From: Planctomycetales bacterium | GTDB lineage: Bacteria; 4484-113 | Length of the DNA stretch: 51,847 nucleotides | Direction: 5' to 3' | NCBI GenBank assembly: GCA_030606285.1 | Contig: JAUWGS010000015.1 | Location: 1-51,847, forward strand | Notes under the pieces: model-generated | Databases searched by the model: none | What the model was told of the DNA's origin: nothing | What the model saw: only the letters and a program-made list of their open reading frames with translations | Program-made: the position numbers and the translations under genes | In this document: positions 25,898 to 37,147 of the stretch, piece after piece | Numbering within the stretch: the stretch's first letter is position 1 | Layout of the letters: each line of letters opens with the position of its first letter

Positions 25898-26287
25898 ACT
25901 TCTCCCCCTTAACACACAATAATAAATGTGATTCCTCAATATCGGTCAGCTAAGCACATACACTAAATGTAATATTAACACATAATTACAGCTTTGCCAA
26001 GGTCACAATAGCGCTAATCAGGAATTTAACCTCCAACCGCCCAATTCGTACCCCACTGCCAATCGATAAGTCAACAACTAAGTTCCGGGACCATCGGTTG
26101 ATGTTGCACATCTAACGTTCTACTGTCAACCCATTTACTTGCCCGAAACTCGAGATGACGATCAACTCCCCTATGTCTATATGATACCGGAAAGCGCTGT
26201 CATGGAGCGTGTCTGAAGTAGCCTACACGGCCCCTGGAGGCAATCGCAAGAGGGAGCCGTAAAACACGCCAAACACTATGGTAACGT
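25898..26287. other. AT-richer non-coding stretch between the Cys-rich gene and rnpB
   Basis: No gene is supported. The part from 25910 to 26000 is clearly poorer in GC than the surroundings, with TATTAT- and TAATAT-like boxes that could serve the Cys-rich gene. I see no hairpin with a T-run after rnpB. The lower GC is compatible with recently acquired DNA but is also common in promoter regions. Confidence 0.35.
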
Positions 26288-26733
26288 GCGGGGGGCGATA
26301 AGCCGGGTTTTGTCCATCCGCCATTGCCTTGCGGCGGCGGATTGGGCGGCCATTTCTCTAGCCCCGGTGTCTCCACCGGAGTCCAGCGGGCTGAAGTGAC
26401 ACCGGCGAGCTACCGGTATGCCCCGCCTTTCGGCAGAGCATCGTCACCTGCCTTGCACCGGACGGGGTTGCCCACCCGGGAACTTCACAGCCCCGGACGT
26501 GCGCTCTTACCGCACGGTTTCACCCTTGCCAGAGGACTCAACCGAAATTTCGGCCGAGGCCGGCCTGACGCCGACGCGCCGACCGAGGGTCTGGCGGTTC
26601 TTTTCTGTGGCGCGTTCCATATCCCGTTTCGCGGGATTCCGGGAGTTACCCGGCGTCCTGCTCCGCGGTGCCCGGACTTTCCTCACCCGCCTTGGCACTT
26701 AGCTTCAGCGAGCGCGACCGCCTGGCCCCCCGC
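26288..26733 (-). ncRNA. rnpB: RNase P RNA
   Basis: The minus strand holds a complete bacterial RNase P RNA of about 446 nucleotides. P1 is GCGGGGGGC at the 5' end with GCCCCCCGC at the 3' end. The universally conserved region GAGGAAAGTCCGG lies at 26672-26684, and the 3' region ACAAAACCCGGCTTATC at 26297-26313. Length and the order of helices fit type A. The RNA removes the 5' leader of precursor tRNAs together with the RnpA protein. The 3' region reads ACAAAA where the nearby fragment has the commoner ACAGAA. rnpB-derived fragments lie on both sides (24397-24432 and 27940-28034). Confidence 0.95.
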
Positions 26734-26807
26734 ACATTAATGATACCAGAAACGCCACCAGTAAACTCGGTTGGGCTGCTAGCAGCTTGCAGAATAGGCC
26801 GTCGCGC
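26713..26807. repeat. 95-bp direct repeat, copy 1 (rnpB 5' end and promoter)
   Basis: It covers the first ~21 bases of rnpB and 74 bases upstream. Copy 2 is at 27940-28034, same length and orientation, with 87 of 95 positions identical by my alignment. The endonuclease-family gene lies between the copies. Confidence 0.85.
26740..26748 (-). promoter_or_regulatory. extended -10 promoter of rnpB
   Basis: TGG followed by TATCAT, six bases before the first base of P1, so the mature 5' end can be the transcription start. The -35 is weak. Confidence 0.6.
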
Positions 26808-31704: not shown

Positions 31705-31733
31705 ATTTTACCACTCACTCGCGCTTGTGTGAA
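31705..31733 (-). promoter_or_regulatory. promoter of the DUF885 gene
   Basis: TTCACA and TAAAAT on the minus strand are 17 bases apart, with TGG before the -10. It starts just after the mnmA stop, so the gene does not depend on mnmA transcription. Confidence 0.6.
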
Positions 31734-31740
31734 AGGGCTT

Positions 31741-32895
31741 TCAGCGTTCTGTGCCAACTCTCTCTATCATCCCGCATCCGATAACCACGTCGCCGTCGTA
31801 GAATACGCACCACTGCCCCGGCGAGATATGTTCCTGCGGAGTTTCGTATCGGACAAACAGGCCGTCCTTCTCTATCGTATCCAGCGTCGCGGGAACTTCC
31901 CTCTGCCGGTAGCGCGTCTTGACCATCACGCGCCGCCCGTTATCCGTGTAGCCGCGCGCGAGCACATTGACCTGCGAAAGCTCAATGCGGGTAATCGGCA
32001 CGCTCCCCGACTCGCCGACAACCACTTCCTGCTTCTCCGCGTCAATGTCCACAACGTACTTCGCCGGCCCGCCGCCCAGCCTGAGTCCCTTGCGCTGTCC
32101 CCGCGTAAAATGCTCGATGCCGTCGTGCTCCCCCAGCGCATCGCCGCTCACGTCACGTATCACGCCCGCCTGCGGTTCCTCACCCGCCACGCGCCGCAGC
32201 CAGTAGTCGACATCGCGCTCAGGCGTCAGAAAGCACGCGTCCTGGCTCTCCGGCGCCTCGTATGTGGGCAATTCCGCTTCCCGCGCCAGCTTACGCACCT
32301 GCACCTTGGTCAGATCCCCGCAGGGGAACATCATCCTTGCCAGCTGCTCCCGCGTGATCACGGCGAGGAAGTACGACTGATCCTTGTCTTCATCCACACC
32401 ACGCATGAGCTGCAGCAGGTCTTTCGTCCTCCCGCGCCAGTCGGTCGGCGAATCGCCCACACGCTTGTCCACCGGCCCGAATGTTTCGCGCGGTCTGATG
32501 CCGATACGCGCGTAGTGGCCGGTGGCGAGGAACTGGCAGTCCAGCCAGTCAGCGACCCGTAAAAACTCGTCGAACTTCACGAAACGGTTGCAGTCGATGC
32601 AGGGATTGGGAGTCCTGCCAGCGCGGTATTCGCTGACGAAACGCCCGATAACCTTATCGCGGAACGCCTCTTCAAGATTCACCGTGATGTGCTGCGCGCC
32701 GATGATGTCGCACGCGCGCCGCGCTCTCACCACCGCATCGGCTGAGCAGCACGCTCCATCAGTCTCATCGTCTAGCAGCTTCGCAGTGAAGCCGAAAACC
32801 TCATAGCCTTCGCGCACGAGAAGAAGCGCCGCGATGCTGCTGTCCACACCGCCGCTCATGGCAACCGCGACCCGGTTCTTCCGCTCCACGCTCAC
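31741..32895 (-). CDS. mnmA: tRNA-specific 2-thiouridylase MnmA
   Basis: A 384-residue protein of normal length. The ATP-binding PP-loop is SGGVDSS at residues 14-20. The catalytic cysteine pair is C102 in NPCIDCNRFVKF and C221 in ESQDACFL. Other family motifs are ATGHYAR and KDQSYFL. MnmA adds sulfur to U34 of tRNAs for Lys, Glu and Gln, using a persulfide on the second Cys. The start is a GTG with no Shine-Dalgarno; an extended -10 box TGT-TAGACT ends six bases before it, so the mRNA may be leaderless. It is divergent from the lipoprotein gene at 32945. Confidence 0.95.
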   Translation of the reverse strand: MSVERKNRVAVAMSGGVDSSIAALLLVREGYEVFGFTAKLLDDETDGACCSADAVVRARRACDIIGAQHITVNLEEAFRDKVIGRFVSEYRAGRTPNPCIDCNRFVKFDEFLRVADWLDCQFLATGHYARIGIRPRETFGPVDKRVGDSPTDWRGRTKDLLQLMRGVDEDKDQSYFLAVITREQLARMMFPCGDLTKVQVRKLAREAELPTYEAPESQDACFLTPERDVDYWLRRVAGEEPQAGVIRDVSGDALGEHDGIEHFTRGQRKGLRLGGGPAKYVVDIDAEKQEVVVGESGSVPITRIELSQVNVLARGYTDNGRRVMVKTRYRQREVPATLDTIEKDGLFVRYETPQEHISPGQWCVFYDGDVVIGCGMIERVGTER

Positions 32896-34129: not shown

Positions 34130-35155
34130 ATGATGTGGCGGACCGCGGTCTATCGCAACTGGAAGCAGCTCGCCGCTCTGCGCGGCAAGAGAGTGGCGAT
34201 GACCATGGGTATCTTCGACGGCATCCATCGCGGGCACATCCAGCTCTTCAACCTGACCCGCGAGCTCGCTGTCGATATGGCGGGCGTCCCGCTTATATTC
34301 ACTTTCAGCAACCACCCGCTCCAGGTGCGCCAGCCGGAACGGGACGTGAAGTTCATCACACTGCCCGGCGAGAAAGTGTTCCTGCTGCGCAAGCTGGGCT
34401 TCGAGCACGTCGCCTGCTTCGACTTCGACTCTGAGTTCATGAAGATGCACGCTTACCAGTTCTTCGCCAGACTCCGGAGTGTCTTCAGACTTCTCGCATT
34501 CGTCGCGGGGCACGACACGACACTGGGCTCCGACCGCGTGAGCTCCGACAGGCGTTTCAAAGAGCTCGCCAAACAGCACGGCTTCGAATTCTTCCGCATC
34601 GGGCCGGTAACCGACGCCGGTGAGCCCATCTCCTCGCGCCGCATCCGCCAGCTTATCCAGGAAGGCAATGTCGCCGCAGCCAACGAGATGCTGGTCTATC
34701 CGTACTTCGTGCGCGGACGCGTCCAGCCGGGGCGCGGCATCGGTAAACGGCTGCTAGGTATCCCCACCGCGAATCTGCACCTGCCAAATGAGAAGCTCCT
34801 GCCAAGAGAAGGCGTCTATGCCGGCAGCTTCCACAAAAGCCGCAGGCACTACCCCGCCGCGCTTGTAGTAATCCCCGCAGGCCGCCGTCCGGGCTTCCTT
34901 CCGCGCGGCCAGCGCGAAAAATCCGCCGCAACCCAGACGGGCGCTGGACAAGGCGCAATGATTGTGGAGGGCCACATCATCGGGCAGGATATCTCGCTGC
35001 AAGGACGCACGACCGAGTTCATCTTCCTTGAACGCCTGCGCGACAACCGCCGGTTCAGGTCAGCCGACAAACTGCAATCGCAGATACATGACGACATCGC
35101 CGCCACGAATCGTATCTTCGAGCGTTCGGTAGTGCGGCTGCAATTCCTGCCGTAG
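34130..35155 (+). CDS. ribF: bifunctional riboflavin kinase / FAD synthetase
   Basis: The 341-residue product has both enzyme domains. The N-terminal FMN adenylyltransferase has GIFDGIHRGH at residues 27-36 and SSRRIRQLIQEG near 165. The C-terminal riboflavin kinase has GRGIGKRLLGIPTANLHLPN and a GVYAGSF strand. The linker around GRRPGFLPRGQREKSAATQT is longer than usual, and the common GxNPTF segment cannot be seen there. RibF turns riboflavin into FMN and then FAD in the cytoplasm. The frame reaches a TTG at 34091, but that codon is part of the -35 box, so the ATG at 34130 (or 34133) is the start. No Shine-Dalgarno: probably leaderless. Confidence 0.92.
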   Translation: MMWRTAVYRNWKQLAALRGKRVAMTMGIFDGIHRGHIQLFNLTRELAVDMAGVPLIFTFSNHPLQVRQPERDVKFITLPGEKVFLLRKLGFEHVACFDFDSEFMKMHAYQFFARLRSVFRLLAFVAGHDTTLGSDRVSSDRRFKELAKQHGFEFFRIGPVTDAGEPISSRRIRQLIQEGNVAAANEMLVYPYFVRGRVQPGRGIGKRLLGIPTANLHLPNEKLLPREGVYAGSFHKSRRHYPAALVVIPAGRRPGFLPRGQREKSAATQTGAGQGAMIVEGHIIGQDISLQGRTTEFIFLERLRDNRRFRSADKLQSQIHDDIAATNRIFERSVVRLQFLP

Positions 35156-35315
35156 CTGCACAAGGTCGCATAGCCCACTCGCCGCTCGTCGCGCCTCAGC
35201 CCATTATTGATGCGGTTCCCGCAAGTACGCGCATGCCAACGACTGCAAATTGCGGCTGCTTCGTTGTGGATAACTATGCGGATAAGTTGCTCAGCCTATT
35301 TAACACCAAAACCCC
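35156..35315. other. non-coding stretch with two DnaA-box-like sites
   Basis: No gene is supported between ribF and the candidate RNA. It contains TGTGGATAA (35265-35273), a perfect reverse DnaA box, and TGCGGATAA (35277-35285), one base off, 12 bases apart in the same orientation. Confidence 0.35.
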
Positions 35316-35344
35316 TTGACACCCCATTGCCCACCGACTATCCT
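35316..35344 (+). promoter_or_regulatory. strong promoter of the candidate structured RNA
   Basis: A perfect TTGACA and TATCCT are exactly 17 bases apart. Transcription should start near 35350-35351, about 11 bases before the terminal helix of the RNA. Confidence 0.65.
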
Positions 35345-35350
35345 GACCGT

Positions 35351-35714
35351 GGTATACCGGACTGGCCCCGTGGAGGGCGAGATCCTTGAAAGGTGGGACA
35401 GGCGGACTTCCCTGGAGGCGAGCTTCCGGCGGATGGAGAAGCTTCGGTTTCCCCAGAACCCGAAAGCGGACTTTAGGAGAGGACCGGAAATAACCAAGCC
35501 CTGCTTCGGTAAGGCATGGCGAGTACCGGAACTCAAGACGACTGGACTCGGCGCGAGTGGAGGGCGAGCCCCGGCAGACCCAAGGCCCGTATACGACCCA
35601 GACGTGGGGGAGATGCGAACCAGCCCACCCCCTTTAGCGGAACCCGGAGGCTCTTCGGAGCCATCGGAGGAAGCCAAAGTAGAGGAACTCCCTGTTGATA
35701 CGGGGCCAGCATCC
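35351..35714 (+). ncRNA. candidate ~360-nt structured RNA, family not recognised
   Basis: The ends pair as a perfect 10-bp helix: CTGGCCCCGT (35362-35371) with ACGGGGCCAG (35700-35709). Inside are three UUCG-capped hairpins: TGG-A-GAAGC/GTTTC-C-CCA (35434-35455), GCC-C-TGC/GTA-A-GGC (35498-35515) and GGCTC/GAGCC (35649-35662) with an outer CCG/CGG. The first two each have one A-C mismatch. Further helices are TTCCGG/CCGGAA (35424-35429 with 35484-35489) and ACTCG/CGAGT (35546-35558). The same frame is open as a 134-codon Arg/Pro-rich ORF (35316-35720), but with AGG, AGA and ATA codons and no ribosome-binding site. I found no match to tmRNA, 6S, SRP RNA, RNase P RNA or group I or II introns. 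Confidence 0.55.
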
Positions 35715-35754
35715 ATTTAAGGCCGGGTTAAAAAGCATCTTCTGTAGGGATTTA

Positions 35755-35957
35755 TGCGCCTTTGGCGCACAGGTTTATGAATTGCCCTAAGCCCCTCCCC
35801 CGAGTACGCCGGGCTTCAGCCTGAGTTCAGCCGAACGGCTCACCAGCCCGGCTCTTACACTGGCCGGAGTGGGGACCTCCAGGTCACCACACCTTGAATC
35901 GCGCGACCTGAAGGTCGCGCGTCCGGTTATGTAGTCCAACAACCGCGCCTTTGGCGC
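35755..35957. repeat. patch of small perfect palindromes
   Basis: No gene is seen from 35721 to 36021. Palindromes are TGCGCC-TTT-GGCGCA (35755-35769), GACCT-CC-AGGTC (35874-35885), CGCGCGACC-TGAA-GGTCGCGCG (35900-35921) and GCGCC-TTT-GGCGC (35945-35957), besides repeat copy B at 35800-35856. The first and last share the core GCGCCTTTGGCGC. Confidence 0.6.
35800..35856. repeat. hairpin repeat, copy B
   Basis: CCGAGTAC is followed by an 8-bp stem GCCGGGCT/AGCCCGGC, with GGCTCACCAG just before the second stem strand, as in copy A at 29907-29959. Confidence 0.5.
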
Positions 35958-36021
35958 TTAACGGCTCAGTCGTGAAGTAGGCGTATCTGAGGTCGTTTGC
36001 GGCAACGGCAACGCTCCGAGC

Positions 36022-36267
36022 TTACTTCCGAAGCGCGCTCAGAAACTCCTCCTCAGACACGCCCATTTCTTTAAGGCGACCGATGAGTCTGCGCACAATT
36101 CTAATGTCGAGGTCTCCTTTATGACTTGGAAGGGTGAAGAAGTCTTGTGAACTCGTCGGCAAGAAGAAGGTAACGTGGCTTCCCCTGGCATGTCGCTGGC
36201 AAAAACCCAGTCGCTTCAATGCGGAACTTGCTTCACGAAAAGTGATGACTGGGAGCTTCTTCCCCAC
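36022..36267 (-). CDS. hicA: HicA-family toxin
   Basis: An 81-residue HicA/YcfA-like protein. It shows the double-stranded-RNA-binding-like fold pattern: ALKRLGFCQRHARGSHVTF with the catalytic-type His after Gly-Ser, the strand ending TLPSHKGDLDIR, and the C-terminal GVSEEEFLSAL helix. HicA toxins cut mRNA, and HicB neutralises them. It starts three bases after the stop of its hicB partner (36271-36645), so antitoxin and toxin are translated together. This is the last gene of two tandem hicB-hicA pairs. Confidence 0.9.
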   Translation of the reverse strand: MGKKLPVITFREASSALKRLGFCQRHARGSHVTFFLPTSSQDFFTLPSHKGDLDIRIVRRLIGRLKEMGVSEEEFLSALRK

Positions 36268-36270
36268 TTT

Positions 36271-36645
36271 CTATGCCACTACCGCTTGCTCGACTGAAAC
36301 TTCACAAGAGACGCTCAGAGTTACCACTTTGAACGTAATGGGGCCATCCTCTAAGAACTCCTTCGGAATAACGATGTCGCTTGCAGGAGCAGTCCAGCGA
36401 ACCGTGCCATTCCTGCTCTTCCTCGGCCTGAGCCCGCAAGACCTAAGATGCTTGTCAAGAATCTTTTCCTCGGCTAGAAATTCAAGGGTTAGCGAGATTG
36501 CTTCTTTAGCCATCTCAATGGCTTCTTTCTCTGTGTCCCCCTGGGAGTAGATATCAAGAATGGGGGAGCCGGCAACATACGCAATCTCGCTCCAGAACAC
36601 TATGCCTGGGACCTTCACGGTCATAGTGCTGGTTTGTTTGCCCAT
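36271..36645 (-). CDS. hicB: HicB-family antitoxin
   Basis: A 124-residue HicB-like protein. The partial RNase H-like domain is recognisable in PGIVFWSEIAYVAGSPILDI, then YSQGDTEKEAIEMAKEAISL, the family signature. The C-terminal part (WTAPASDIVIPKEFLEDG) is probably the dimerising or DNA-binding tail, but no clear helix-turn-helix or ribbon motif is seen. It should bind HicA and repress its own operon. The ATG lies six bases after a perfect TATAAT and lacks a Shine-Dalgarno, so it is probably read from a leaderless mRNA. An in-frame ATG at 36624 is the alternative. Confidence 0.85.
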   Translation of the reverse strand: MGKQTSTMTVKVPGIVFWSEIAYVAGSPILDIYSQGDTEKEAIEMAKEAISLTLEFLAEEKILDKHLRSCGLRPRKSRNGTVRWTAPASDIVIPKEFLEDGPITFKVVTLSVSCEVSVEQAVVA

Positions 36646-36651
36646 AGGGCC

Positions 36652-36660
36652 ATTATAACA
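36652..36660 (-). promoter_or_regulatory. extended -10 promoter of the hicB-hicA pair nearest ribF
   Basis: TGT followed by a perfect TATAAT on the minus strand, six bases before the hicB ATG. The next hicA ends upstream at 36700, so this pair has its own promoter. Confidence 0.55.
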
Positions 36661-36699
36661 TTGACCCGGCTGGTTATGAGATCGTCCCCTACAGGGAAG

Positions 36700-36927
36700 T
36701 CACCGAGTAAGAGAAAGGAATTCCTCAACCGTCAGCCCGGCCTGCCGGATTATCGAGCGCAGCGTCCCTCTGGCGACTTCTTTGTGGTCTGGCACCGATA
36801 GCCTTCTGTAAGGTGGTTTCACATTACGCAGGATGATGTGGCTTCCGGTTTGATGGTCGACCTTGTAGCCGAGCTTCTCTAGAGCCTGGCAGATTTTTCT
36901 TCCCGACAGGACAGGTAGTCGCGGCAT
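36700..36927 (-). CDS. hicA: HicA-family toxin, second pair
   Basis: A 75-residue HicA-like protein: KICQALEKLGYKVDHQTGSH carries the core with Gly-Ser-His, then LSVPDHKEVARGTLRSIIRQ and the C-terminal GLTVEEFLSL. It differs strongly from the HicA at 36022, so the two pairs are not recent copies. It starts seven bases after its hicB partner (36935-37147). Role: mRNA-cleaving toxin held by HicB, by family. Confidence 0.9.
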   Translation of the reverse strand: MPRLPVLSGRKICQALEKLGYKVDHQTGSHIILRNVKPPYRRLSVPDHKEVARGTLRSIIRQAGLTVEEFLSLTR

Positions 36928-36934
36928 CCGGTTC

Positions 36935-37147
36935 TCACACCGCGATTTCGACGATTTCTTCTTCTATCGGCGGCGGGATGGGCTCACCGTGCTTGGCCAG
37001 GCTTTCCAGGTAACCTTTTATCGCATCCTGTATATTCGCCAGCGCTTCTTCGCGTGTATCCCCTTGCGAAACGCATCCGGGCAGCGCCGGACACTCCACA
37101 ACGAACACGCCGTCTTCATCCTGCTCGATTAGAACCCGGTATTTCAT
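36935..37147 (-). CDS. hicB: HicB-family antitoxin, second pair (short)
   Basis: A 70-residue HicB of the short type: YRVLIEQDEDGVFVVECPAL, LPGCVSQGDTREEALANI and a C-terminal IPPPIEEEIVEIAV. It lacks any DNA-binding extension, so autoregulation, if present, needs another protein. A perfect TATAAT lies at 37166-37171 on the minus strand, giving a short leader with AAAAAG before the ATG. It heads the four-gene run hicB-hicA-hicB-hicA. Confidence 0.9.
   Translation of the reverse strand: MKYRVLIEQDEDGVFVVECPALPGCVSQGDTREEALANIQDAIKGYLESLAKHGEPIPPPIEEEIVEIAV

Follow-up and report, generated by a model that had tools for sequence, protein, structure and literature searches.

To our knowledge, large and intricately folded RNAs are few in bacteria, and OLE, GOLLD and ROOL (role unknown) serve as test cases for what RNA is capable of. 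OLE (ornate, large, extremophilic) is an RNA of about 600 nt that is found mostly in Bacillota and is associated with oapA; its kink-turn, the binding site of YbxF/OapC, is required for function (PMC9723947). GOLLD and ROOL, likewise large and ornate RNAs of bacteria, assemble into homo-oligomers (PMC12286853), and a standard kink-turn is also described in several orphan structured bacterial RNAs: namely, drum, HOLDH, RAGATH-18, and Actinomyces-1 (PMC8191799). The locus described here lies in a 51,847-nucleotide stretch of DNA (called the window below, at its full length) from a metagenome-assembled genome of the candidate phylum 4484-113, the GTDB name of the host lineage. We consider it reasonably probable that this region encodes a structured, non-coding RNA of ca. 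364 nt that is transcribed independently, which would represent a new family with two branches, A and B.

Like OLE, this RNA would be standalone, large, structured, lineage-limited, and equipped with a kink-turn, but it is shorter and has no match to the OLE covariance model, and no oapA was noticed among the open reading frames (ORFs) near the copy in the window (A0). A likeness to GOLLD and ROOL is more speculative: the palindromic 5' end of the new RNA (GGUAUACC) might let two molecules pair and hence permit dimers. Unlike those RNAs, to which it has no sequence match, it is chromosomal and syntenic and is absent from the phage and plasmid records searched. With drum, HOLDH, RAGATH-18, and Actinomyces-1 the new RNA shares a predicted kink-turn, whereas its overall layout is its own. 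Indeed, an Rfam 15 covariance-model scan of the whole window (OLE, ROOL, GOLLD, the FMN riboswitch, and group I/II introns included) left the region without a match at the gathering threshold, and relaxed E-values gave no relevant match to any of the five members compared below; the sequence-only reading, which could not place the RNA in a known class, thus stands on this point. Our literature search also found no publication on the family. In terms of sequence and structure, the family is new to Rfam 15, and by its general character it belongs to the small group of RNAs in bacteria that are large, ornate, and standalone. Its 5' end is predicted to single-base precision, its kink-turn can be tested, and one genome holds two paralogues; the family would mean that poorly sampled candidate phyla harbour structured RNAs missed by current libraries.

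A DNA search of 60 genomes gave one orthologue (A1, contig JAOZQG010000042.1), which is located downstream of ribF in a genome (G001) congeneric with the source genome (G000), just as A0 is in the latter. The block conserved between these two genomes (~35260-35727 in the window) is 86% identical, as compared with 78% over the longer match including ribF, and stops at 35727. By a relaxed search of ten genomes of the phylum, a further copy (A2) was found on the minus strand of contig MVCR01000073.1 of Planctomycetales bacterium 4484_113 (G002), which is placed in the same family but in a different genus; this copy carries the promoter and a middle motif as well as both the 5' and the 3' end. Sequence models were made of the promoter plus 5' end (R1), the 5' region (R2), and the 3' domain (R3). 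R1 revealed a second locus in G000 (B0) and in G001 (B1, minus strand) with E-values of 4.6e-5 and 1.3e-4, respectively; B0 and B1 are syntenic with each other and, judged from their sequences, are diverged paralogues of the A copies. The G002 assembly, which is 77% complete, yielded no B copy. With R2 and R3, these five loci were the only convincing matches in the phylum, and R2 under stricter filters hit only the three known genomes among 385 and none of the 382 others. A scan of GTDB r220 with a degenerate motif returned 17 stretches, two of which were the real, known relatives while the rest had no surrounding conserved sequence; motif and model matches beyond the bacterial family were also weak, and those inspected were without the conserved elements. 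As far as seen, therefore, the RNA family is confined to one family of bacteria. The search for homologues, which had been proposed when the region was first described, has yielded four further members, and the comparison given here concerns five sequences from three metagenome-assembled genomes. The features of A0 are collected in Table 1.

Table 1. Predicted features of the RNA gene A0 and its upstream region (window coordinates).
Feature	Positions	Strand	Remarks
Upstream region	35265-35310	+	DnaA-box-like TGTGGATAA at 35265-35273; GATAAGTTGC at 35281-35290; UP-element-like TATTTAAC...AA
Promoter	35310-35344	+	AACCCC-TTGACA, -35 box at 35316-35321; 17-nt spacer; -10 box TATCCT at 35339-35344
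Non-coding RNA	35351-35714	+	~364 nt; predicted +1 at 35351; basis: five homologues and folds
5'-terminal palindrome GGUAUACC	35351-35358	+	Invariant; 6 nt past the -10 box in 5/5 members
P1, 5' strand	35362-35371	+	Pairs with 35700-35709; 10/10 pairs in 5/5 members; 6 pairs changed on both sides
Kink-turn, non-bulged strand GGA (3n, 2n, 1n)	35372-35374	+	Invariant; fits the kink-turn definition in PMC8191799
P2, 5' strand (kink-turn C helix)	35375-35387	+	Pairs with 35682-35693
P3, 5' strand	35389-35397	+	Pairs with 35624-35629 and 35631-35635; hand alignment
UUCG hairpin 1	35438-35451	+	RNA position 90-94; UUCG in 4/5 members, CUCG in the other
UUCG hairpin 2	35498-35515 (about)	+	UUCG at RNA position 150-155 in A0, A1, and B0
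P3, 3' strand (CCCACC and CCUUU)	35624-35635	+	Partner of 35389-35397
P9, UUCG hairpin GGCUC-UUCG-GAGCC	35649-35662	+	UUCG in 5/5 members; 2 pairs with compensatory change
P2, 3' strand	35682-35693	+	Partner of 35375-35387
Kink-turn, bulged strand (L1-L3 GUU, G1b A2b, U3b)	35694-35699	+	GUUGA in four members; GGUGA in A2
P1, 3' strand	35700-35709	+	Partner of 35362-35371

In the five-member alignment, 100% of the cells are paired in P1 (10 pairs) and P9 (5 pairs), and eight of these 15 pairs are changed on both sides, a number that none of 500 shuffles equals; when the partner strand was slid by 1-3 columns, 33-51% of the cells were paired and, as against these eight, the slid controls gave 0-1. 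The basal helix is hence the perfect 10-bp helix of the sequence-only reading, and the covariation that was to be looked for consists of compensatory changes in this terminal helix and in one UUCG stem, P9. Some of the variants in P1 and P9 are wobble pairs such as UG, which would be AC on the opposite strand, so that the plus strand is the one predicted to be functional. P2 and P3 are also formable in all five members even from largely dissimilar sequences; P3, for example, is formed by AAAGGUGGG, CGAAGGA, AAGAAGGGC, and AAGAGGAGCUC with their partners and, in a hand alignment, amounts to 7-11 pairs per member despite these very different sequences. The pairings of P2 and P3, being aligned by hand, are weaker evidence than those of P1 and P9. 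Common to the five members are the 5' end, P1, P2, P3, and the UUCG arm P9. UUCG loops occur near RNA positions 92, 152, and 300 in both the A and the B branches, and all three hairpins noticed at first are found within the RNA, two of them (hairpins 1 and 2) with the single A-C mismatch when their stems are extended; the view that three such caps are unlikely to arise by chance agrees with the outcome of 1000 dinucleotide shuffles, none of which gave three with a stem of 3 bp or more. A long-range pairing of CUUGA near the 5' end with UCAAG in the middle was considered and rejected; both are conserved, but CUU belongs to P2.

The folding energy is less decisive for A0. Its minimum free energy of -150.3 kcal/mol corresponds to a z-score of -1.75, with five of 100 shuffles as good, and A1 has a similar value (z -1.84). 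The reverse strand of A0 scores equally, and the z-score of A0 by itself was rejected as too weak for a decision. A2, B0, and B1, in contrast, are clearly beyond their shuffles when folded singly (z -6.15, -4.97, and -5.68; none of the shuffles equals them in stability), and their single folds have the same layout of P1 and P2 followed by P3 as a large branched arm and by P9 as the arm with the UUCG cap. The comparison with shuffles is thus ambiguous for A0 itself, and it is the comparison of homologues, not the energy of A0, by which the predicted structured RNA is settled. Taken with its homologues, A0 supports the reading as a large structured RNA that had been drawn from its sequence.

In each of the five members, P1 and P2 are separated by an internal loop that conforms to a standard kink-turn, with GUU (GGU in A2) followed by GA opposite GA. 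Its 3b:3n pair is U:G, A:G, or G:G among the members, and the -1b:-1n pair is U:G in A0, A1, B0, and B1 and C:G in A2; the usual and preferred pair at this position is C:G. Standard kink-turns fold upon addition of Mg2+ or upon binding of an L7Ae-family protein, most of them upon protein binding, and we infer that the putative kink-turn of A0 is bound by such a protein.

With regard to transcription, the promoter TTGACA-17-TATCCT is present as first described. It matches the consensus at 10 of 12 positions, and no other sigma-70-like site occurs in 35150-36030, where shuffles average 0.2. The spacing of 17 nt between the -35 and -10 boxes is kept in all five members, and the -10 hexamers of the B copies are poor (CATTAT and GATTAT). 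Also, the order of the -10 box, 6 nt, and then GGTATACC is constant across the five members; given this constant distance, transcription very probably starts at the first G of the 5' end. Transcription of A0 is a prediction from sequence. For the A copy, the 3' end (~35714) is placed by P1 alone, and no terminator was found on the plus strand; a strong intrinsic terminator lies ~50 nt downstream of the B copy.

Probably, then, we are dealing with a lineage-restricted structural or regulatory RNA that forms a ribonucleoprotein, with its kink-turn presumably bound by an L7Ae-family protein. A role as a kink-turn-based ribonucleoprotein or scaffold is the most economical proposal: the RNA would act in trans, as a ribonucleoprotein or a folded scaffold, and a protein of the YbxF/YlxQ type would bind and bend the P1/P2 kink-turn, clamp the ends of the RNA, and position the P3 and P9 arms, while the invariant nucleotides of loops and junctions may form a functional centre. 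More tentatively, we would entertain a new class of large RNA with no known relatives, which might be a ribonucleoprotein machine or a ribozyme and the two paralogues of which may cooperate.

It is unlikely that the RNA is a cis-regulatory leader of a downstream gene, such as a riboflavin-linked switch near the rib genes, because the downstream context varies among the members and nothing on the same strand follows A0. The idea draws on the A copies, which follow ribF in G000 and G001 and, in G002, precede a gene for riboflavin synthase in the same orientation. The next ORFs after A0 in G000 are, however, convergent and hicA/hicB-like, the B copies (B0 in G000) are flanked by a dihydrolipoyl-dehydrogenase-like gene on one side and a convergent IF-2B-family gene on the other, and neither the FMN riboswitch nor any other relevant Rfam family is matched. 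An RNA of a mobile element, a phage, or a satellite, as is sometimes the case for ROOL, GOLLD, omega RNA, or retron RNA, might also be lineage-restricted and present in two copies per genome in one genus; this we regard as very improbable, given that both loci are syntenic between two species, that no transposase, reverse transcriptase, or integrase was noticed adjoining A0, and that phage, plasmid, and viral collections gave no match. A divergent or duplicate housekeeping RNA (RNase P, tmRNA, 6S, or SRP), to which the closed terminal helix and a size like that of RNase P or tmRNA would be suited, is scarcely credible: proper copies of all four are present elsewhere in the genome (198.6, 117.2, 52.8, and 68.6 bits for RNase P, tmRNA, 6S, and SRP, respectively), the four models have no match at the A0 locus, no member has even a weak match to these families, and their conserved motifs were not seen. 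Finally, long overlapping antisense ORFs are common in the window (e.g., 31729-32562 on the plus strand opposite 31741-32895 on the minus strand), and open frames alone hence say little. We give next to no weight to a small protein gene with G+C-rich chance folding, for which frames open across the whole block on both strands (134 aa at 35316-35720 on the plus strand, 138 aa on the minus strand) might speak, but in which the TTG start sits on the -35 box, the substitutions between G000 and G001 are spread evenly over the three codon positions in the plus-strand ORF (10/10/11 before the indel), a one-base deletion at 35606 between these genomes and, in A2, a two-base indel near the 5' end plus stops disrupt the frame, and neither strand's ORF has a Pfam match, so that no coding pattern is left.

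Returning to the independently transcribed RNA, its upstream region is kept wholly or partly in all five members and partly also at the promoter of dnaB in G000 and G001. The conserved elements are ATAA(G/C)TTG, ATTTAA, and AA(C/T)CCC, the last adjoining the -35 box. The DnaA-box-like element of A0 reads TGTGCATAA in G002 and TGTTGATAA at the B copies. The dnaB promoters of G000 (C32:49620-49724) and G001 (C91:12418-12461) have a AACCCCTTG box, GTTGATAAG, and a TTAA tract as in the promoters of the RNA family, and the dnaB leader contains a conserved GGGGAGAGGGCG. This resemblance, which is a resemblance only, suggests that the RNA may be co-regulated with the replication gene dnaB. The twelve-base box has no further site within one mismatch anywhere in the window.

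Also in the window, a bacterial class A RNase P RNA (198.6 bits) is encoded at 26283-26734 on the minus strand. Two genes for HicA toxin-like proteins lie within 36022-37147 on the minus strand (36022-36267 and 36700-36927), each preceded by a HicB-like gene, of which that at 36935-37147 is clear and that at 36271-36645 is below the Pfam cut-off. Downstream of the RNA, strong palindromes such as CGCGCGACCTGAAGGTCGCGCG are present at 35805-35930, which might be a miniature repeat element or a structure resembling a terminator.
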